64,000 nt of DNA from Planctomycetota bacterium (GTDB lineage Bacteria; Planctomycetota; Planctomycetia; Pirellulales; Pirellulaceae): assembly GCA_016872725.1 (NCBI GenBank), contig VGZC01000029.1, forward strand, positions 1 through 64,000. Reading direction: 5' to 3'. Shown here one piece after another: positions 52,787 through 62,624 of the stretch. A program made the translations under genes and the position numbers. Position 1 is the stretch's first letter. Every line of letters begins with the position of its first letter. The notes under the pieces are model-generated. The model had not been told where the DNA came from, made no database searches, and saw nothing but the letters and a program-made list of their open reading frames with translations.

Positions 52787-52824
52787 CTTGGTTTTGAAGA
52801 TCCGCACGGCGTTGGCCTTCAGTT

Positions 52825-52869
52825 GGCGGTGTTCCGCAGCCGGTGGGCCTCGTCGATGACCACGAGGTT
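52825..52869 (-). pseudogene. Helicase motif II fragment (HsdR/SNF2-like)
   Basis: Fifteen codons NLVVIDEAHRLRNTA, the DEAH-box motif II context of SF2 helicases such as type I restriction HsdR. A stop follows at once. Fused upstream of the RhuM fragment, it is a scrap of a larger gene. Confidence 0.4.
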
Positions 52870-52921
52870 TCAGGCGGGTCTCGCAGTCGGAACGGCCGTC
52901 ACGGGTGGACAGCGCGAGCGG

Positions 52922-54136
52922 TCAGGCGGTGAGATCGTCGAGCGCTCGGGCGGCGAGCAAGACATGCAGTGCGGTGCCGATCGGAAGCGCCCGCTCGTCC
53001 ACTTGGAACTTCGGATGATGGACGGAGTGGACCGCGCCGGATTCGGCGCTGTGGATGCCCAGGGCGAGGAAGCAGCCGGGAACCCGGTCGGTGTAAAACG
53101 CAAAATCCTCGCCGCCCATTACGGGCGGAATCTCCGCGACGTTCGGCTCACCAACCAGCGACTCGGCGACCTGCCGCGCCGCGTGCCAGCTCTCGGATTC
53201 GTTCACCACGGCGGGATAATCCGTATCGATGCCCGCGAATTCGGCTTGGCATCGATGCGCGGCGGCGACCGACGACGCGATCTCGCGGACGCGTTGCTGG
53301 AGGTAGTGGAGCCCCGCGCTGCTGAGCGATCGGAGCGTGCCTCGCAGGGTGACCGATTCAGGTATCACGTTGCAGGCGTCGCCGCCATGGACGGCCGTGA
53401 CGCTCACCACGCCCGACGCGAGCGGATCGATTTCGCGGGCGATGATCGACTGCAGGCTGGTGACCACGTGCGACGCGGCGAGAACGGGATCGACGGCGTA
53501 GTGCGGCATGGCCGCGTGTCCGCCCTTGCCGGCCACGGTGATCCTGAAGAAACCGGTCGCGGCCATGAACGTGCCGGCGCGGCCGCCGACGGTGCCGGTC
53601 GGCAGCATGGGCCACACATGCATTCCGAAAATCCGCCCGACGTCGGGATCGCGGAGCACGCCTTCCTCGCACATCCGCAATCCGCCGGCTCCGCCTTCCT
53701 CGGCCGGTTGGAACAGCAGCTTCACCGTCCCGCGCAGCGACGATTCGCGTTCCTTGAGCAGTCTTGCCGCGCCGAGCAGCATGGCGGCGTGCGCGTCGTG
53801 GCCGCACGCGTGCATCTTGCCGCGGTTCCGGCTGCGGAACGGCACGTCGGCGTCCTCGGTGATCGGCAGCCCATCGATATCGGCGCGCAGCGCGACGCAC
53901 GGTTCACCCCGCCCCACCCACGCGCAAATCCCCGTCGTCGCGACCGGATGCCGGTAGGCGATACCAAGCTCGTCGAGTCGGCTGCGGATGATCTCGCTCG
54001 TTTCGAATTCCTGGTACATCAGCTCGGGGCATTGGTGCAACGCGCGGCGCGCGTCGGTGATCCACGGCGCGGCGCGTTGCGATTCGGCCAGAATGCGTTT
54101 GGCGTCGAACGACGCACGGGATGTGGAATCCACCAT
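52922..54136 (-). CDS. M20-family amidohydrolase (N-acyl-amino-acid/hippurate hydrolase type)
   Basis: 404 residues. Zinc or manganese-dependent hydrolase of N-acyl amino acids. Metal and catalytic motifs: KMHACGHDAHAAM (Cys and His ligands and Asp), FQPAEEGGAGG with the Glu pair, GMHVWP, the dimerisation domain (GKGGHAAMPHYAVDPVL), GDACNVIPESVTLRGTLRSL and GGEDFAFYTDRVPG. Family length is normal and all ligands are present. It is the last gene of a seven-gene minus-strand run, 48 nt after the giant TPR gene, and may or may not share its function. Confidence 0.9.
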   Translation of the reverse strand: MVDSTSRASFDAKRILAESQRAAPWITDARRALHQCPELMYQEFETSEIIRSRLDELGIAYRHPVATTGICAWVGRGEPCVALRADIDGLPITEDADVPFRSRNRGKMHACGHDAHAAMLLGAARLLKERESSLRGTVKLLFQPAEEGGAGGLRMCEEGVLRDPDVGRIFGMHVWPMLPTGTVGGRAGTFMAATGFFRITVAGKGGHAAMPHYAVDPVLAASHVVTSLQSIIAREIDPLASGVVSVTAVHGGDACNVIPESVTLRGTLRSLSSAGLHYLQQRVREIASSVAAAHRCQAEFAGIDTDYPAVVNESESWHAARQVAESLVGEPNVAEIPPVMGGEDFAFYTDRVPGCFLALGIHSAESGAVHSVHHPKFQVDERALPIGTALHVLLAARALDDLTA

Positions 54137-54184
54137 CGCGATATTCCTGAATGCGTTTCCGCGGCGGCCGAGCGGCGCGGCGAG

Positions 54185-56698
54185 TCACCGTTTCTCTTCG
54201 GCCGGAATCGAATCGAGCAACGATCGTACCGCGCGATCCCATTGCGTGCCACGATCGGGAGGCTGCGTCAGCAGAACATGCCGCAGGACCTTCGCCGCCT
54301 CGTCTTTTTGTCCGAGTTCCACCAAAGCGCGGGCGACTCCGCACTTCGATTCATACCACGCGTCCGAGCGGGGTCGCGTGAACCGGGCGACATGCCTCCA
54401 TCGTTCGAGCGAGGCCGGCCAGCCGACGCGATCGGCTTCCGATTCGATCACGCGCGCGTATTCAAGCTGGATCGACGCGTCGCTCGGGAATTCGGCCGCC
54501 AGCCGCGCGTAGGCGTCGAGCGCCTCGGAGCCGCGCTCGGCGCGTCGCAGCGCGACGGCGCGGAGCCGATCGAGTTCGCGTTGGTCGGCCGCGTCGGTCG
54601 CCTCGCCTCGCAACGTGTCGATCGATTCGAGCTGGAGCACGGCGAGCGATCTTTGCCCGGCGGGCGGCAGACGAGCGGCGTGGGCTTCGAGATCGCGCAG
54701 CAGCGCGAACCGTTTCGCGAACGACCTGTTCGCGACCCTCGCCGCGCGCGCCGCCTCGACCGCGTCCGCGTGCCGTTCGGGCTGGAGCGCGAGGGCGATG
54801 ACCAGCAGACTCCGCGCTTCGGCGACGCGAGGATCCTCGGCGGGAACCGATTCGAGCACGCGCCGCAATCGGGCTTCCGATTCCTGAACGCGCCGCGGGG
54901 CGAAGTCGAGCAACAGGCGGGCAACCGCCAGATCGACGGGTACGGGCGTTTCCGAGCCCGCTTGCCATGCTTGCCAGAACGCGAGCATCGCGTCGACGTC
55001 GGCGGGCGCCGCGTCTTGGCCGGCATCGGCCAGTTTACCGGCCCAAGCCCGCGCCGCGCCCGCGACCGCCTCCGTGAACATCGCGGACTCGACGGAAACC
55101 TCGCCGTAGCGCGCCAACGCGGCATCCCATTCCTTTTCGTGCGTCCGGAGATTCGCGAGCCAGACGCGAACCCGGTCCGATTCACCGCCTCGGGGCCATT
55201 GGGCGAGGTGTTCGTCGAGCAGTTCGCGATACGCGCCGATCCGCGCGGGATCGGTCCGCGCGAGTCGGACGGCGAGCGTAATGGACTCGAAGTGCGCGGA
55301 CGGGGCCTGCGCGTGGGAACGCATGGCGAGCGCCAGCTCGCGCCAGCGGCGCAGCGCGTCGTCGAGGTTCCCGGTCTTTTCGGCGAGCCGCGCTCCGCGC
55401 GATCGGCAAAGGAACGCGTCATCCGCCGCGCCCGCCTTGGCGGCGGCGGCCGCCGCCGCGTCGTACGCGGCCAGCGATTCGGCCCATTGGTTCCTCAGGT
55501 AGAGATCGTCGGCTCGGCGGCGGAGGATCTCGACGTCCGCGACACTTCGGCCCTCACCCGCCGACCGCAACACGAGTTGTTCGGCGCGGCGGCCCCAATA
55601 CGCCCCATGACGGCGTTCGATCGCCTTCATCGATTCGATCGCCCGGTCGCGTTCGGGCCCGCCGCGCGGCGACGCGTCGGGGCCGCCCGCCGGATCGGGT
55701 TGCCACAAACGCACGAGGACTTCGAGCCGCGCCAGATCGAGGTCGGGCCAGCGCCCCGGCGGAGGTTCGGGGTCGGCAAGCGCCTTGGCCCGATCGAGAT
55801 CGCGTTCGGCGAGCGCCAACCGCATCTGTTCCGCCAACAGGTCGGCCCTTAGCTGGACGGGCACGTCCGCATCGGACCAGGCCGCCTGTACGCGCCGCGC
55901 TTCGGGGATGTCGCCGAGCAACCTTCGGCAGATCGACTGCTCGATTCGGATGCGCCACGCGAGCGGATCGTCGGGGGGAAGTTGACCGAGGGCGTCGGCG
56001 AGCGGTTCGAGCGCGGCGGTCAGCGCGGCGATGCGGTCCTCGCCGTCCCGGTAACACAAGGCCCGGTTCCGAAGGGCCTCGGCGCGGTGGATGCGGAGCT
56101 GGTTGCGAAGGGCGAACAGATCATCGCGGACCAGACCTCCGTCGGAACGGGTCGCCGGCGCCGTCGGGATCTCCTTTTCCAAGCGTGTTTCGAGTTCCTC
56201 GAATGCCCGCACGGCGGCCCGGATCGCGGTGAGCGCGTCGGCGACGCGCGGATCGGGCGCGTCGCGCGCGACCTCCGCCTCTTCGCGCGCGACACGGCCC
56301 TCGGCCAAGAATGCGATCGCGTCCTGAGCGGGGACGAGGACCGCGTCGGGCACCGCGTCGGGCCGCTCGGCGTACCGAGCGGCCGTTTGATGGGCCCGTT
56401 CCCACCACAAAGGGCGTTCGGCGGCCGCCGCGAACATCGCCCGCTCGGCGTGGACCCGAATCAGCTCCGATGTCCATTTCGCGCGTTGGGGTCCCGAGAT
56501 CGACGATGGGGCGAGCCGTTCGTCACAGAGCGAGGCGGCGAGCGCGTGGAGCCGTCTTGCACGCAGTCCCTCCAGGAACGCGTCGTCGCGCGCGGCCTGG
56601 CCGAACGCGATTCCAACGGTCGCGACGAGCCGGACGGCGAGCGCGGCGAGCGCCGTTCGAATGGCGAAACAGGTCCGAATCGGAAACGGACGGACCAT
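54185..56698 (-). CDS. Large secreted TPR/alpha-solenoid protein of the VWA-ExbBD operon
   Basis: 837 residues. Signal peptide at residues 14-34 (TALAALAVRLVATVGIAFGQ). The rest is almost wholly helical, with TPR-like units throughout (AYDAAAAAAAKAGAADDAFL, RRWRELALAMRSHAQAP, ALDAYARLAAEFPSDASIQL, ALVELGQKDEAAKVLRHV). No catalytic motif is seen. ATG 56698 is 3 nt after the exbD stop, so it is translationally coupled to the motor genes. A periplasmic scaffold or substrate-binding platform for the ExbBD machine is the natural guess, but unproven. Confidence 0.8.
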   Translation of the reverse strand: MVRPFPIRTCFAIRTALAALAVRLVATVGIAFGQAARDDAFLEGLRARRLHALAASLCDERLAPSSISGPQRAKWTSELIRVHAERAMFAAAAERPLWWERAHQTAARYAERPDAVPDAVLVPAQDAIAFLAEGRVAREEAEVARDAPDPRVADALTAIRAAVRAFEELETRLEKEIPTAPATRSDGGLVRDDLFALRNQLRIHRAEALRNRALCYRDGEDRIAALTAALEPLADALGQLPPDDPLAWRIRIEQSICRRLLGDIPEARRVQAAWSDADVPVQLRADLLAEQMRLALAERDLDRAKALADPEPPPGRWPDLDLARLEVLVRLWQPDPAGGPDASPRGGPERDRAIESMKAIERRHGAYWGRRAEQLVLRSAGEGRSVADVEILRRRADDLYLRNQWAESLAAYDAAAAAAAKAGAADDAFLCRSRGARLAEKTGNLDDALRRWRELALAMRSHAQAPSAHFESITLAVRLARTDPARIGAYRELLDEHLAQWPRGGESDRVRVWLANLRTHEKEWDAALARYGEVSVESAMFTEAVAGAARAWAGKLADAGQDAAPADVDAMLAFWQAWQAGSETPVPVDLAVARLLLDFAPRRVQESEARLRRVLESVPAEDPRVAEARSLLVIALALQPERHADAVEAARAARVANRSFAKRFALLRDLEAHAARLPPAGQRSLAVLQLESIDTLRGEATDAADQRELDRLRAVALRRAERGSEALDAYARLAAEFPSDASIQLEYARVIESEADRVGWPASLERWRHVARFTRPRSDAWYESKCGVARALVELGQKDEAAKVLRHVLLTQPPDRGTQWDRAVRSLLDSIPAEEKR

Positions 56699-56701
56699 GC
56701 G

Positions 56702-57169
56702 TCATGGTTCTCCGTCTTCCAGCGGCGTCGCGAACGCGACGCGGAACTGATGGAGCCGCGCCGCGTCGTACGCGTCGATGGCCGCGCCGAGCGGCACGTC
56801 GGGATCGGGATGCACGATCACCGGCGCGACCCGGCCGACGGAGGCGAGTTGGCCGAGGAACGCGCGCAGCGCCGCGAGCGATTCAACGGGCGTCTCGTTG
56901 ACCTCCCACGTCAACGCGTCCCGCGTTCCGCGAATGCGGATCACCACCTCGTCGAAATCCTCTTCCGGCGGCGGAGCCTCCGACATCGCGCCCGGAGCCG
57001 AACCCCGCGACACGCTCACCGAACTCGGCAGCGTATGCTCGACGATCCGAAAGCTCGACGTCCAGAGGAAGAAGATAATGAGCTGGAACACGACATCGAT
57101 CATCGGCGTCATGGCGACGTCGTTCCCGGTTTCGCGCCGGGATCCGGAATGGATCGTCGCGCGGCGCAT
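56702..57169 (-). CDS. ExbD/TolR-family protein (second copy)
   Basis: 155 residues from ATG 57169, which overlaps the previous stop as TGATG. One N-terminal transmembrane helix with the key Asp (MTPMIDVVFQLIIFFLWTSS), then a periplasmic domain (EVVIRIRGTRDALTWEVNET, LASVGRVAPVIVHPDPDVPL). The Asp in the helix is the proton-path residue of the ExbD/TolR/MotB family. It differs from the first copy in its linker, which is rich in Pro and Glu (EAPPPEEDFDE), suggesting a heterodimeric pair. Confidence 0.9.
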   Translation of the reverse strand: MRRATIHSGSRRETGNDVAMTPMIDVVFQLIIFFLWTSSFRIVEHTLPSSVSVSRGSAPGAMSEAPPPEEDFDEVVIRIRGTRDALTWEVNETPVESLAALRAFLGQLASVGRVAPVIVHPDPDVPLGAAIDAYDAARLHQFRVAFATPLEDGEP

Positions 57170-57591
57170 CAGCGGGCGTCCTTCGAGCGGAAAACGGAAT
57201 AGACCACGTTCGACACACCCTCGCGATAACAGGCGAGCAGGATCGGTTCGACGAATCGGAAGGACGTATCCCGGTCGGCGCGGATGCGCAGTTCGAATTC
57301 CCCTTTTTCGGATCGCCACGCGCGGAGCCGCTCCCGGATCTGTTCGGCCGGAATCACGCGGCCCGCGACGAGCAGCGCGCCGTCGGCGCGGACGTTGATC
57401 ACCGATCGCGACGCGTCCTCATCGGCGAGCGTTCCGCTGTCCGCGATCGGGAGCGGAAGTTCCATGCGGGCTTCCTGCTTCACGAGGTGGCTCGAGACCA
57501 GAAAGAAGATGATGAGCTGGAACACGACGTCGATCATCGGCGTCATGTTGAAGGCGAGCGAAACGTGCCGGTCCCGCGTCGGAATGCGCAT
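57169..57591 (-). CDS. ExbD/TolR-family protein (first copy)
   Basis: 140 residues. The N-terminal helix LAFNMTPMIDVVFQLIIFFL contains the conserved Asp. The periplasmic domain ends FRFVEPILLACYREGVSNVV and resembles TolR. It forms the ion channel with ExbB. It starts 10 nt after the exbB stop and overlaps the second exbD by one base, so three motor subunits are made in a coupled way. Confidence 0.92.
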   Translation of the reverse strand: MRIPTRDRHVSLAFNMTPMIDVVFQLIIFFLVSSHLVKQEARMELPLPIADSGTLADEDASRSVINVRADGALLVAGRVIPAEQIRERLRAWRSEKGEFELRIRADRDTSFRFVEPILLACYREGVSNVVYSVFRSKDAR

Positions 57592-57601
57592 CGTCGGCCT
57601 T

Positions 57602-58459
57602 TCACTTCGGAGGCGCCGGCGGCGGACCCCCGCCGTAACGCGACGCGTGCTTCAGCGGCCCGAGCGCATGCTGCGCCTGATACGCGGCCTCGGCCGCCAT
57701 CTCGTCGACCCGATTGCGCAGGATGGCGAACGCGCCGAGCGACGGGATGGCGATGATCAGCCCCACGACGGTCGTCACGAGCGCCTGATAGATGCCTTCC
57801 GCGAGTTCCGCGGCGCCGGCGGAACCCTGCGTTCTCGCGACCTGTTCGAACGCCATGATCATCCCGGTGACCGTTCCGAGCAGTCCGAGCATCGGTGCGA
57901 TGCCGCCGATCACCGATAGATATTCGACACGGCGGAACAACCGCGCGGATTGTTCGGCGAGCGCGTCCTCGAGTCCCTTTTCGACGGCCGACCAACCGCC
58001 GTCCGCTTCCCCGATCCCGTACAGCAGCACGAACGACAGGAGGCTCGGCCGCTCACGGCATTTCGCGTCGGCTTGGGCGAGCTGTCCGGCCGCGACCAGC
58101 GCCCGCGTCTCGTCGGCCAATCCGTCGGGTACGAGTTCCTTGCGGCGCAGCGTCAGGAACTGCTCGAAGACAAGGTAGGCGGCGGTGAGCGAGACGCCGA
58201 TGAGCGCGATCATGATCACGACGCCGATCGGGCCGCCGGAGAAGAGGATTTCGAAGAACCCTTGCGGCGGCCTCGGCGCGGGCGCGGCGGCGTCCTCGGT
58301 CGGTTGTCCGGCCGCGAGCGAGGTCGCGAGGAGGACGAGCATCGGTCCGAGGGCGGCCGCGCGGGGCGCGAGCGTCGCCCGCGCGGGGCGGGAATCGCCG
58401 CCGCGCCGACCGGTCCGTCCGTTGCCGCCGCGCTCCCGGCGTGATGCCGACCTGTTCAT
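57602..58459 (-). CDS. MotA/TolQ/ExbB-family proton channel protein
   Basis: 285 residues from ATG 58459, which overlaps the preceding stop by 4 nt (ATGA). A long basic, Gly/Arg-rich N-terminus leads to a hydrophobic segment that could be a signal (ALGPMLVLLATSLAAGQ). Three transmembrane helices follow: GVVIMIALIGVSLTAAYLVF, VIGGIAPMLGLLGTVTGMIM and ALVTTVVGLIIAIPSLGAFA, as in ExbB/TolQ. The GLLGTVTGM element is the family signature. It should use the proton motive force to drive the ExbD pair. Confidence 0.93.
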   Translation of the reverse strand: MNRSASRRERGGNGRTGRRGGDSRPARATLAPRAAALGPMLVLLATSLAAGQPTEDAAAPAPRPPQGFFEILFSGGPIGVVIMIALIGVSLTAAYLVFEQFLTLRRKELVPDGLADETRALVAAGQLAQADAKCRERPSLLSFVLLYGIGEADGGWSAVEKGLEDALAEQSARLFRRVEYLSVIGGIAPMLGLLGTVTGMIMAFEQVARTQGSAGAAELAEGIYQALVTTVVGLIIAIPSLGAFAILRNRVDEMAAEAAYQAQHALGPLKHASRYGGGPPPAPPK

Positions 58460-59598
58460 GGTTCTCCGCCTTGCTTCAAGCGTTCGAGTTCCTGGAGCCG
58501 TGTCCGCGCGGGCGCGGCCGGCGCCGTTTCGGGATAGTCGGCGGAAAGCTCGCCATACAAGATCGATGCCTCGTCCGTACGCGATTCCTTGTCGAGCAGT
58601 CGGGCGGCCGCCCAAAGCGACTCGGCGGCCAGCACGCGTTCCCCCGGGAAGTGGATCGGCACGCGCAGCAAGGCGAGCGCCGCTTTGTCCACTTGGGCGT
58701 GCCGCGCGAGGGCCGATCCGAGCACGAAATAGGGACCGGCCCGCAAGTCCGCTTCGATCCGTTCGATTCCCTCGGCCCACCGCTCGAGTCCGCCGAGCGT
58801 CGACGTGGCGACTTCGGTTCGCCAGAGTTGCGCGGCGGCGAGCCGCGCGACGCGCGGATCGGCGGCGGCGTCGAGTTTCACGAGCGCGTCGCGCGCCGCG
58901 CCGCTCGAAGGCGACGCGAGGAGGTGGCTCGCTCCGACAAGCCGCATCGCGTCGCGCGGATGGTCGAGCCATTGGGCGGCTTTCGATTCGATCGCGCCGC
59001 GGGGCGGTTCCGACGACCACGCGAGCGGAATCACGGAGAAGTAGTGCGTGTCGGGGTCGCTTTCGAGCAGCGCGGCGAAGAGGTCGCCGGCGAGCTCATT
59101 CCGGCCGGACTGACGATAACATGTCACTAACGCGGCGAGGATTCCGCGGCGGACCCAGGTCCGCGGCTCCTCGTCCGCGGCCTTCCTCCACATGGCGATC
59201 GCCTCGTCGATGCGGCCCTCGGCCTGGAGTTTCCGCGCGAGGACCTGCGATTCGACCCAAACCGACTCGACGCCGACGACCCGTTCCGTCGGAATCCGTT
59301 CCTCGCGGCCCGACGCGCGGACCAGGATCAGCTCGCGGCCGGTGAAATCGCGGATTTCGCCCGTCATCCGCCGCGTGCCGCGGCCCGACGCGCCCGCCAC
59401 GACGACCGTGTCCTCGGCGAGCAGACCGGGCCTTCCGCCCGCGATGCCGATCGACGACAGGCTCGCCAGGACAAGAACGCCACTCGGGATAAGCCGCCGC
59501 GCGCGGCGCGCCGACGGCCCACGGCCGGCGCGCGCCGGCCCCCGCCGCGCCGTCCCGCCGCCGCTTGACCGGGCTCCGCTCCATGCATCGCGCCGCAT
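58456..59598 (-). CDS. TPR/HEAT-like protein of the VWA-ExbBD operon
   Basis: 380 residues. An Arg-rich start precedes a hydrophobic segment (LIPSGVLVLASLSSIGIAGG), so it is exported or anchored. A short beta-like segment (RRMTGEIRDFTGRELILVRA) resembles domains seen before HEAT/TPR arrays in Planctomycetota. Helical repeats follow (LQAEGRIDEAIAMWRKAADE, LAGDLFAALLESDPDTHYFS). The stop overlaps the exbB start by 4 nt, and the VWA gene ends 52 nt upstream. It may be a periplasmic adaptor of the machine (inference). Confidence 0.8.
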   Translation of the reverse strand: MRRDAWSGARSSGGGTARRGPARAGRGPSARRARRLIPSGVLVLASLSSIGIAGGRPGLLAEDTVVVAGASGRGTRRMTGEIRDFTGRELILVRASGREERIPTERVVGVESVWVESQVLARKLQAEGRIDEAIAMWRKAADEEPRTWVRRGILAALVTCYRQSGRNELAGDLFAALLESDPDTHYFSVIPLAWSSEPPRGAIESKAAQWLDHPRDAMRLVGASHLLASPSSGAARDALVKLDAAADPRVARLAAAQLWRTEVATSTLGGLERWAEGIERIEADLRAGPYFVLGSALARHAQVDKAALALLRVPIHFPGERVLAAESLWAAARLLDKESRTDEASILYGELSADYPETAPAAPARTRLQELERLKQGGEP

Positions 59599-59650: not shown

Positions 59651-60676
59651 TTACGGAGGCAGTCGAGTCACGTCGACATAAACATACTGTCCGCCGTTCT
59701 GCTCCGCCAACCGGGTCAGGAACGACGGTCGACCGTTCGGAGGTCCGCCTCCGAACTCGATGGAGTGGACCGTCGTTCCCGCGCGCTCCGCCTGCCGCCG
59801 AAAGGACGCGAGTTGCCGCGGCGCGAGGGGGTTTTCGGAACCGTCGGTCAAGAAGAAGATGACATCGGGTTTCATGGCGACGGCGAGCTGGAGGGCCTCC
59901 CAATGCCCGGTCCCCCCGAGCGCGGTCATGCCTTCGACGAATTGGCGGGCGAGTCGCCGGCCCTGATCGTCGGCGAAAAGGAGTCGAGGCGCCTTGGGCG
60001 CGTCCGGATTGAAGACGCTCGGACGCTCGTTGTAGAAAACGATCTGGAATTGGTGGACGGCGCCGAGTTGGTCGAGGCTCGCGAGCAGTTGCTGTTTGGC
60101 CGCTCGAAGGGGGCGCCCTCCAAACCCGTCCATGCTCGCCGACCGATCAAAAACATAGACGAAGCGGGTGCCCGTCGCGCCGGCTCCGAAAATCGATGTG
60201 GTCGCCTGTCCTCCGACCGATCGCGACGGCTTTCCCGATGACGTCATCGAGTCGGCTCCGGGCAATCCGGGCGAGCTTCCCGGCGCGGGACCGGCCGTCT
60301 GGGGGTCGGGCAGCGCGGGTGTCCCTTGGCCCGGTCCGCCTGCCGCGTCGGGAGCCGGCAGCGGATCGGCCGTTTGAGCGGCTTGAGCGGCTTGTCGCGC
60401 CGAGTCCGCGGCGTCGGATTCGGAGGCGATAAGGTAGTCGCGGGCGGCGCGGCGTACGTCGACGACCGCGACCGCGGCTCGGCGGTCGGGTTCGTTCCCC
60501 GGCAATCCGCGTGGCGGCGCGTTTCGCCATGCGATGCCCGCGAAAATCAAGACGGCCGCGTGCAACAGGGCTGAACCCAACCACGCGGGCACGCGGGGTC
60601 GGGCCGTGTCGAATACGGGCGGATCGGCCCGCTCCGCGGCGGGATCCCTCTGCGTCGTGGTCCGGGTCCGGGACAC
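59651..60676 (-). CDS. Membrane-anchored VWA-domain protein
   Basis: 341 residues from GTG 60676 (GGGAG upstream). A short cytoplasmic basic N-terminus, one transmembrane helix (WLGSALLHAAVLIFAGIAW), a Pro/Ala/Gly-rich linker of about 100 residues like that of TonB, and a C-terminal von Willebrand A domain with the MIDAS signature DRSASM and a second VFFLTDGSENP element. VWA domains bind partner proteins through a metal ion. It leads the operon with ExbB and two ExbD, so it probably is the energised output or receptor in place of TonB/TolA (inference). Confidence 0.85.
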   Translation of the reverse strand: MSRTRTTTQRDPAAERADPPVFDTARPRVPAWLGSALLHAAVLIFAGIAWRNAPPRGLPGNEPDRRAAVAVVDVRRAARDYLIASESDAADSARQAAQAAQTADPLPAPDAAGGPGQGTPALPDPQTAGPAPGSSPGLPGADSMTSSGKPSRSVGGQATTSIFGAGATGTRFVYVFDRSASMDGFGGRPLRAAKQQLLASLDQLGAVHQFQIVFYNERPSVFNPDAPKAPRLLFADDQGRRLARQFVEGMTALGGTGHWEALQLAVAMKPDVIFFLTDGSENPLAPRQLASFRRQAERAGTTVHSIEFGGGPPNGRPSFLTRLAEQNGGQYVYVDVTRLPP

Positions 60677-60930: not shown

Positions 60931-60991
60931 CGTAACCGTCCACGATTCGGTTTATTTTGCGGAAGGAAGCACGAAGTTGGAGGCGAGCCCC

Positions 60992-61570
60992 TTGCGGATC
61001 ATCCGATATCCCCACCCCACGCTGCGACACGTTTCGAAGACGATTCGGCGCGTCGACGCCGAGTTGACGACGATTGTCGAGCGGATGTTCGACCTGATGT
61101 ACGAGGCTCAGGGGATCGGACTCGCCGCCAATCAAGTTGACCTTCCGCTCCGGTTCTTTGTCGTCAATTTGGCGGGAAAGCCGGGTGAAGGCGAGGAGCG
61201 GGTTTTCTTGAATCCCGTCATCACGCGCCCCAAGGGAAGCGAGGAATCGGAGGAGGGCTGTCTGAGTCTTCCGGGGATGTACGGCGACGTCACGCGGCCA
61301 AAGCAAGTTCGCATCCATGCGTACGACGTGTCGGGCAACGTGATCCAGGAGGACGCCTCGGGGATGCTCGCGCGCGTGCTCCAGCACGAACTCGACCATC
61401 TCGACGGCGTGTTGTTCTTCGACCGCATGGACGAGATGAAGCGGCTGAAATTCACCGATGCGCTCGAACAGCTCGAATCGGAATTCGCCGAGGCCGTCGC
61501 GTCGGGGGAGCTGACATCGGTCGCGGAAATGGCCGCGCGGCGCTCGGAATGGGAACGGACCTATTGCTGA
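60992..61570 (+). CDS. def: Peptide deformylase
   Basis: 192 residues. Removes the formyl group from nascent protein N-termini. I choose TTG 60992 since GGAGG ends 8 nt upstream and it gives the usual start (RIIRYPHPTLRHVSK); TTG 60977 is 5 codons earlier with a weaker site. The three family motifs are present: GIGLAANQV (41-49), EEGCLSLP with the metal ligand C90, and QHELDHLDG with H132 and H136 (catalytic E133). The next gene, fmt, adds the formyl group, so both ends of the formylation cycle are adjacent. Confidence 0.94.
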   Translation: MRIIRYPHPTLRHVSKTIRRVDAELTTIVERMFDLMYEAQGIGLAANQVDLPLRFFVVNLAGKPGEGEERVFLNPVITRPKGSEESEEGCLSLPGMYGDVTRPKQVRIHAYDVSGNVIQEDASGMLARVLQHELDHLDGVLFFDRMDEMKRLKFTDALEQLESEFAEAVASGELTSVAEMAARRSEWERTYC

Positions 61571-61575
61571 CGCGG

Positions 61576-61615
61576 CGGCCTTGTACGGCCTTGGACGGCC
61601 TTGTACGGCTTGGGA
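61576..61615. repeat. Four 10-bp tandem repeats between def and fmt
   Basis: CGGCCTTGTA-type units at 61576-61585, 61586-61595, 61596-61605 and 61606-61615; units 1 and 3 are identical, unit 2 differs at one base and unit 4 at a few. It lies in the 97-nt space between def and fmt. Confidence 0.9.
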
Positions 61616-61667
61616 CGATAAGAAGACGTCCGGCCCAGGAACGGATACTCGGCGCGGAGGCGATGCC

Positions 61668-62624
61668 ATGCGCATGGTCATGATGGGGACGGGGCCGTTC
61701 GGCGTTCCCACGTTCAAAGCGTTGCTCGCGTCGTGCCATACGGTGGAGGCGTTGATCACGCAGCCGGCTCGCCCGGCGAAAGGGCGGCGCGACGCCGCGT
61801 CCAGCCCGATGCGCGCGGCGGCGGTCGCGGCGCACGTTCCGGTCCACGACCCGGAGCGCGTGAATGATCCCGAGTGCGTCGCCCTGCTGCAGCGCCTGGC
61901 TCCCGACCTGTTGGTCGTGTGTGACTACGGCCAGATCCTTCGTCCCGATGTCTTGGCAACGGCCAGACTCGGCGCGATCAACCTCCACGGGTCCCTATTG
62001 CCGCGATACCGCGGCGCGGCGCCCGTGCAATGGGCGATCTGCCATGGCGAGGAAACCACGGGCGTGACCGTGTTTCGCATCACGGCGGGTCTGGATTCCG
62101 GTCCGATCCTGACGGAGCGGAGCGCGCGGATCGAAGCGGACGACGACGCGCCGCGGCTCGAAGCGCGGCTCGCCGAACTCGGCGCGGGCGCCGTGCTCGA
62201 CGCGATCGACGGGCTCGCCGCGTGGGACGGCCGATCGCCGCTGGGAACCCCCCAAGATCCCGCGCTCGCGACCCGTGCCCCCCGTTTTCAGCGCGAGGAT
62301 GGCCGCATCGATTGGCGACGGCCCGCCCGCGCGATCCGCGATCGCGTGCGCGGATTGACGCCGTGGCCCGGCAGCTTCACGTTCTGGCATGGGGGGATCG
62401 GCGAGCCGGTTCGGTTGTTGATCCAGCGAGTCGGATTGCCCGAGGGGCCGAGCGACGGGGAGGCCGGGCGCGTCGTGCGGGTCGAACGCGATCGGTGCTG
62501 GGTCGGCGCCGGCGACGGCCGGGCCGTCGCCCTCGAACGCCTGCAGGCGGCGGGAAAGTCGAGCATGGATGTGGCCGATTTCCTCCGCGGCCATCCCGTC
62601 CGCGTCGGCGACCGCATGGAATAG
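61668..62624 (+). CDS. fmt: Methionyl-tRNA formyltransferase
   Basis: 318 residues from ATG 61668 (GGAGG 8 nt upstream). Transfers a formyl group from 10-formyl-THF to initiator Met-tRNA. The N-terminal Rossmann domain has MMGTGPFGVPTFKALL, the active-site motif HGSLLPRYRGAAPVQWAI, and GEETTGVTVFRIT. The C-terminal domain has IDWRRPARAIRDRVRGLTPW, which contacts tRNA. It is full length with no anomalies. Confidence 0.94.
   Translation: MRMVMMGTGPFGVPTFKALLASCHTVEALITQPARPAKGRRDAASSPMRAAAVAAHVPVHDPERVNDPECVALLQRLAPDLLVVCDYGQILRPDVLATARLGAINLHGSLLPRYRGAAPVQWAICHGEETTGVTVFRITAGLDSGPILTERSARIEADDDAPRLEARLAELGAGAVLDAIDGLAAWDGRSPLGTPQDPALATRAPRFQREDGRIDWRRPARAIRDRVRGLTPWPGSFTFWHGGIGEPVRLLIQRVGLPEGPSDGEAGRVVRVERDRCWVGAGDGRAVALERLQAAGKSSMDVADFLRGHPVRVGDRME

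Follow-up and report, generated by a model that had tools for sequence, protein, structure and literature searches.

A VWA-domain protein encoded beside ExbB/ExbD-like motor genes in a planctomycete: a probable force-transducing arm of a published class

The SHLS motor-binding motif of TonB includes Ser16 and His20, its most structurally conserved pair, which contact Ser34 and Trp38 of ExbB; Leu and the last Ser of the motif are less conserved in TonB, too (PMC12215075). On the ExbB side, the TonB-linked network consists of Ser34, Trp38, and Pro190 in the E. coli ExbB numbering (PMC12215075), and the D-box strand of TonB comprises residues 46 to 49, located 26 to 29 residues past His20 (PMC10907165, PMC12215075). 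A class of vWA force transducers, found in Planctomycetes among others, has been proposed in section 8 of the paper by Williams-Jones et al. 2025 (Mol Biol Evol, PMC12204202). These proteins are described there as combining a helix, a motor box, a linker, and a vWA domain and as being encoded in a TPR/tolQ/tolR/tolR neighborhood; SHLS is present in “many” of them, the contact made by the motor-binding His is seen in AF3 models, and, according to that paper, phenotypes had not been reported for them. The words “MIDAS” and “metal” do not occur in the main text of that paper, and its section 8 makes no mention of detached VWA genes. Two later papers (PMC12905483 and PMC12842022) carry its title in their reference lists only, and a 2026 review of gliding (PMC13104615), in the text available, names von Willebrand only for CglB. 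The terms Willebrand, TolQ, biopolymer, Tol-Pal, and TonB are absent from the main texts of two studies of planctomycete and verrucomicrobial essential genes (PMC10632474 and PMC12283558). A search by titles and abstract openings, with most subscription journals and preprints outside its scope, found no experiments on these VWA proteins.

The window analyzed here is a stretch of 64,000 nucleotides from a planctomycete genome. Its relevant features, all encoded on the minus strand, are as follows.

59651..60676, minus strand: VWA protein (proposed force-transducing arm), 341 aa, GTG start
60524..60586, minus strand: N-terminal transmembrane helix, residues 31-51 (AlphaFold2; Ser35 and His39 invariant in 41/41 aligned homologues)
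60560..60574, minus strand: Ser35-x3-His39, first half of the SHLS motor-binding motif (conservation; motif definition from PMC12215075)
60455..60478, minus strand: strand-like box, residues ~67-74, near the position of the TonB D-box/motor box (pattern matches)
60209..60523, minus strand: disordered Ala/Pro/Gly linker, residues 52-156, ~105 residues (low pLDDT, composition)
59672..60208, minus strand: VWA domain, residues 157-335 (AlphaFold2, Foldseek, profile search)
60134..60148, minus strand: MIDAS DRSAS, residues 177-181 (conservation)
59909-59911, minus strand: MIDAS Thr256
59843-59845, minus strand: MIDAS Asp278
58456..59598, minus strand: TPR protein 1 (TPR1), 380 aa (TPR_19, E 2.5e-6)
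57602..58459, minus strand: ExbB/TolQ-like motor subunit (PF01618, E 2.4e-26)
57169..57591, minus strand: ExbD/TolR-like subunit 1 (ExbD1; PF02472, E 5.8e-19)
56702..57169, minus strand: ExbD/TolR-like subunit 2 (ExbD2; PF02472, E 2.2e-14)
54185..56698, minus strand: TPR-like protein 2 (TPR2), 837 aa (TPR_14, sub-threshold E 0.0037; conserved position)

The general layout is that of the published class: a His in the transmembrane helix, a linker of ~100 residues, a vWA domain at the end, and genes for a TPR protein, a TolQ-like protein, and a pair of TolR-like proteins next door. The window locus differs from it (PMC12204202) in that the VWA gene comes first in the operon, whereas those in the paper are often downstream, in the second TPR-like gene that closes the operon, and in the missing Leu and last Ser of SHLS. 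With TonB, the VWA protein shares the helix with S-x3-H, the strand-like box after it, the Pro-containing linker, and the ExbB/ExbD motor, but it ends in a VWA domain, and no TonB_C domain was found in it. The helix, box, linker, and motor are likewise shared with TolA, along with a TPR neighbor, TPR1, that shows weak similarity to the YbgF/CpoB model (TIGR02795, E 1.2e-5, under the cut-off of that model); in contrast to TolA, Pfam detects no TolA C-terminal domain. Indeed, neither of these C-terminal domains was matched by the VWA protein at E ≤ 1 or by 41 members of its family at E ≤ 0.01, and their presence in the VWA protein was accordingly rejected. The VWA region also matches TIGR03788 (marine sortase-target VWA) at E 3.5e-12, a match limited to the VWA region that scores 45.5 bits against a cut-off of 551.65. 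The preliminary description of this DNA regarded an arm of this kind on an ExbBD motor as something new. This was not sustained: the class, its gene neighborhood, and the His contact are already described in PMC12204202, and the window protein is a well-supported member of a class in print since 2025, not a new kind.

The GTG start of the VWA gene is a choice, as the reading frame stays open far upstream; in homologues that have the helix inside the match, the alignment begins at approximately residues 2 to 38 of the 341-aa protein. The AlphaFold2 model, built with 41 homologues, has a helix at residues 31 to 51, low confidence at approximately residues 52 to 156, and a VWA fold at residues 157 to 335. 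In composition, residues 52 to 158 (107 residues) include 23 Ala, 16 Pro, and 13 Gly, and the length of the linker is 98 to 128 residues across 76 VWA proteins (from the best 80 of at least 419 relatives, plus the window). The order of N-terminal helix, Pro/Ala/Gly spacer, and C-terminal globular VWA domain, as well as the coordinates given in the preliminary description, is thus borne out by the open reading frame, the model, and the composition. At E ≤ 0.001, the VWA protein has matches in 59 of 60 related genomes, with the best E-value in each being 1.4e-29 or lower, so the protein is not a chance open reading frame.

All six genes of the run lie on the minus strand in the order VWA, TPR1, ExbB-like, ExbD1, ExbD2, and TPR2. 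Stop and start codons overlap at the TPR1-ExbB junction (ATGA) and at the ExbD1-ExbD2 junction (TGATG), an arrangement that would suit a co-translated operon. An ExbB/ExbD motor such as the preliminary description had proposed for the arm is encoded in the same run, by one ExbB-like and two ExbD-like genes. Both motor subunits retain their characteristic residues (all column counts exclude matches of <140 bits): Ser87, Thr193, Thr227, and Pro236 of ExbB (numbering of P0002), with the two Thr residues being both pore Thr, are each conserved in 28/28 aligned sequences, and the membrane Asp is kept in both ExbDs, as Asp21 of ExbD1 (26/26) and Asp52 of ExbD2 (24/24; numbering of P0004). At the position of the TonB-contacting Trp, the window ExbB has Ala and the family is variable, whereas Ser87 and Pro236 are conserved throughout. 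The N-termini of both TPR1 and TPR2 resemble signal peptides, as judged by eye.

A scan of public genome contigs returned at least 419 relatives of the VWA protein, of which the best 80 were kept as named loci; these lean towards close relatives, since they are the best of at least 419, and several of them represent the same contigs as L031 to L070. By their titles, 76 of these best 80 of at least 419 loci come from planctomycetes, three are labeled only as “bacterium,” and one as Nealsonbacteria. A phylum-wide tally gave a match at E ≤ 1e-20 in 109 of 294 genomes, a number that cannot serve as the distribution of the arm because true arms are mixed there with matches to the VWA domain only.

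The pair Ser35 and His39 was conserved well beyond the 41 aligned homologues. Ser and His are both present in 77 of 81 rows (the best 80 of at least 419 relatives plus the window), the remaining four rows having gaps at these positions. Among 237 other conserved N-terminal hydrophobic segments from the same loci, S-x3-H was found in only two; by nearly the same measure, scored over a slightly wider stretch, it was found in 72 of 73 VWA proteins (from the best 80 of at least 419 relatives). This background consisted of stop-to-stop open reading frames of ≥150 aa that had relatives in at least two other loci and a hydrophobic segment within the first 120 residues, and it takes in some mechanical open frames; a His anywhere within the hydrophobic segment occurred in 33 of the 237. 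A chance origin of S-x3-H was rejected, given that the background is only 2/237. The preliminary description had suggested that the helix might carry a TonB/TolA-like SHLS/H motif, and this held for the first half of it: Ser35 and His39 are found in 77/77 aligned N-termini, but the Leu and the last Ser are replaced in the window protein by A46 and W50, respectively. Across 76 VWA proteins (from the best 80 of at least 419 relatives, plus the window), Leu at +7 occurs in 55 and Ser at +11 in just one. The putative docking half of SHLS is thus present in the VWA protein, and the remaining half is absent. S-x3-H is also present, as judged by eye, in the N-terminal hydrophobic segment of the TonB that the window genome encodes.

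Five of the 80 named loci (the best of at least 419) had no S-x3-H within the first 200 residues. In L124, the VWA gene is cut by the contig end; in L155, S-x3-H lies further in; and L177 looks frameshifted, because the matching helix sits in an overlapping frame. The remaining two, L131 and L167, code for close VWA relatives with N-termini that look like signal peptides (by eye), no S-x3-H, and no motor nearby. These genes (L131:8647-9570 and L167:1299-2096) apparently encode exported forms of the same VWA domain.

Downstream of the helix, a short hydrophobic box of strand-like character was recognized by a strict five-residue pattern in 67 of 77 VWA proteins and by a relaxed four-residue pattern, set after the misses of the strict one had been seen, in 76 of 77; the relaxed pattern matched only 5 of 77 when applied to a control segment further along the linker (all from the best 80 of at least 419 relatives, plus the window). 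Its spacing is nearly constant: the box starts 27 to 28 residues past the His in 58 of the 67 strict matches and in 48 of the 76 relaxed ones; in the window protein, it begins 29 residues after the His. The box does not match the exact D-box pattern as published in PMC10907165, and the AlphaFold2 monomer has no strand there.

The globular end is a VWA domain by several measures. Blocks with a mean pLDDT of ≥95 run from residue 161 to residue 340, and the best Foldseek matches are the VWA domains of ITIH4, ITIH1, a Catenulispora VWA protein, CaV alpha2delta, and CLCA1. A profile search of PDB sequences retrieved ITIH4 (E 2e-15) in an alignment that includes the MIDAS. In Pfam, the window protein matches VWA_2 only, at a sub-threshold E of 0.003; the same family is matched at E ≤ 0.01 by 37 of the 41 family members, and the only match outside the VWA families is an unrelated one in a single member. 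The metal ligands of the MIDAS in the VWA family are the DxSxS motif, a Thr, and an Asp. An intact DRSAS MIDAS had been noted in the preliminary description; it is indeed found at residues 177 to 181 and is completed by Thr256 and Asp278. In 81 rows (the best 80 of at least 419 relatives plus the window), S179, S181, and D278 are each conserved in all 81, D177 in 80 (with one X), and T256 in 80 (with one Ser); L170 has unreadable residues, one of them in the MIDAS. Against a mean column identity of 37% in the 41-row alignment, the MIDAS is near-invariant, suggesting selection on the metal site.

Gene order could be followed at 61 loci that had at least 4.5 kb of downstream sequence (among the best 80 of at least 419). 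In 44 of these 61, the 7 kb after the VWA gene contain ExbB and ExbD genes on the same strand; VWA, ExbB, ExbD1, ExbD2, and a TPR gene occur together in 43, and all six genes stand in the order of the window in 32. A TPR gene without a nearby motor is found beside the VWA gene in 8 of the 61, and 9 have neither motor nor TPR, with 7 of these 9 retaining S-x3-H.

Fifteen loci do not have ExbB and ExbD together, of which 13, each representing a genome, form the detached set; left out were L036, with an adjacent ExbB but no ExbD found, and L068, a second copy in the window genome. Sixteen genomes, including three with the VWA gene adjoining the motor (G000, G021, and G032), were compared with the window's ExbB. 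In 8 of the 13 genomes of the detached set, where the motor does not adjoin the best VWA gene, an ExbB of the same subfamily (52 to 62% identical) is encoded elsewhere; therefore, arm and motor often share a genome without being neighbors. These 8 ExbB genes have ExbD beside them in 5 cases, TPR1 in 3, and TPR2 in 2. Because the genes can lie apart in one genome, the link between arm and motor is not merely one of shared operon position. In 5 of the 16 genomes (G015, G037, G040, G046, and G049), the VWA protein is present and no ExbB exceeds 40% identity to that of the window; their VWA proteins still have S-x3-H. Four of the five have VWA followed by TPR1 and TPR2, which in three form one open frame. 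Some lineages thus retain the arm and the TPRs without the motor subfamily of the window. In G037, a distantly related ExbB with ExbDs is encoded on the opposite strand, within a few kb of the VWA gene. The window genome itself has a second VWA gene on contig C17 (5507-6565; L068 and L089), with S-x3-H and no motor in the stretch read; its product may share a motor encoded elsewhere.

VWA genes followed by TPR genes with no neighboring motor are seen at L045, L046, and L064 and at L129, L130, and L171. At the first three, TPR1 and TPR2 are in one open frame of ~1160 to 1300 codons, and the respective genomes (G046, G049, and G040) encode no close ExbB of the window subfamily.

The VWA protein can be interpreted as the periplasmic arm of an envelope machine that is powered by protons and resembles TonB/TolA systems, a reading to which a probability of roughly 0.7 can be assigned; the membrane-anchored arm very probably attaches to the ExbB/ExbD motor as TonB does. 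In favor of this reading are the helix Ser and His with their low background, the absence of this pair from the motor-less L131 and L167, the box, the intact motor residues, the complete MIDAS, the gene cluster, the same-subfamily ExbB in 8 of the 13 genomes with a detached VWA gene, and the AF3-based proposal of the class in PMC12204202. Counting against it are the lack of the SHLS Leu and last Ser in the window protein, the variable Trp position of ExbB, the mismatch of the box with the published D-box pattern and the missing strand in the monomer, the 5 genomes with no ExbB of this subfamily, and the 9 of 61 loci (among the best 80 of at least 419) with neither motor nor TPR. The VWA protein could instead be bound to the motor by the same helix in a regulatory or adaptor role, such as that of a cap or of a TPR-cargo receptor, and transmit no force. 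Such a role would fit the 8 of 61 loci (among the best 80 of at least 419) that keep TPR genes beside VWA and have no motor nearby, but the protein keeps the whole layout of TonB, with S-x3-H, the box, a linker of 98 to 128 residues, and a globular end, which makes this alternative improbable. A further comparison is offered by the Bat-type VWA/TPR assembly. Were the VWA protein part of an assembly of this type, anchored in the inner membrane, the motor genes would be operon neighbors that make no physical contact with it. The 8 VWA-TPR loci without a neighboring motor and the 9 VWA loci without either (of 61, among the best 80 of at least 419) are what such an assembly would lead one to expect. 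Yet a mere anchor leaves the invariant helix Ser and His unexplained against a background of 2/237, the Pfam scan of the 41 members at E ≤ 0.01 yielded, beyond VWA families, only that one unrelated match, and the ExbB subfamily is kept elsewhere in 8 of the 13 genomes with a detached VWA gene, so that a Bat-type assembly is quite improbable.

The second vWA class of PMC12204202, the TPH-vWA proteins, places a vWA domain on a trans-pore helix, similar to those of ExbD and MotB, inside the ExbB pentamer. The general context is the same, with vWA encoded beside a TolQ-like gene and a TolQ-like motor in both cases. In that class (PMC12204202), however, the helix has an Asp and there are no ExbD neighbors, whereas the window protein has no Asp in its helix at residues 31 to 51 and is encoded with two adjoining ExbDs that have the membrane Asp. 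The assignment of the window protein to the trans-pore class was rejected on these grounds; the chance that its helix is of that kind is very slight.

Under the preferred reading of the VWA protein as a periplasmic arm, the predicted topology, the conservation of the motif, box, and MIDAS, the gene cluster, and the co-occurrence of the motor subfamily can be put together into a scheme in which complex formation, stoichiometry, force, metal, and partner would be as follows. The motor would be built from five copies of ExbB and one of each of the two ExbDs (56702-57591). Ser35 and His39 would dock the VWA helix onto the outer face of ExbB, and the periplasmic domains of ExbD would capture the strand-like box that follows it. 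Proton flow past the ExbD Asp and the ExbB Thr would pull on the linker, and the VWA domain at its far end would grip a partner by a metal-dependent (MIDAS) contact. The likeliest partners would be the co-encoded TPR proteins or something bound by these at the cell wall or outer membrane. Given the near-complete conservation of all five MIDAS ligands, the grip of the arm may be metal-dependent. A more specific and rather doubtful proposal is that the MIDAS works as a metal- and ligand-gated clutch, gripping only when the metal site meets an acidic residue of the partner, after which the motor pulls. If true, this force transducer would grip in the manner of integrins, by MIDAS chemistry, in contrast to the strand addition of TonB and TolA. 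These data provide independent, quantified support for the published class of putative proton-driven force transducers and add two facts that make it testable, namely the conservation of the MIDAS ligands and the separability of arm and motor genes within one genome.

The window genome has nine matches to the MotA/TolQ/ExbB family and a single match to TonB_C; it perhaps has more motors than known arms. Divergently from the operon, on the plus strand of the window, lie genes that, judging by eye from their translations, read like a peptide deformylase (60977-61570) and a methionyl-tRNA formyltransferase (61581-62624). A 1009-codon open frame on the plus strand (52823-55852), antisense to TPR2 and a neighboring hydrolase-like gene, is probably a high-GC artefact.
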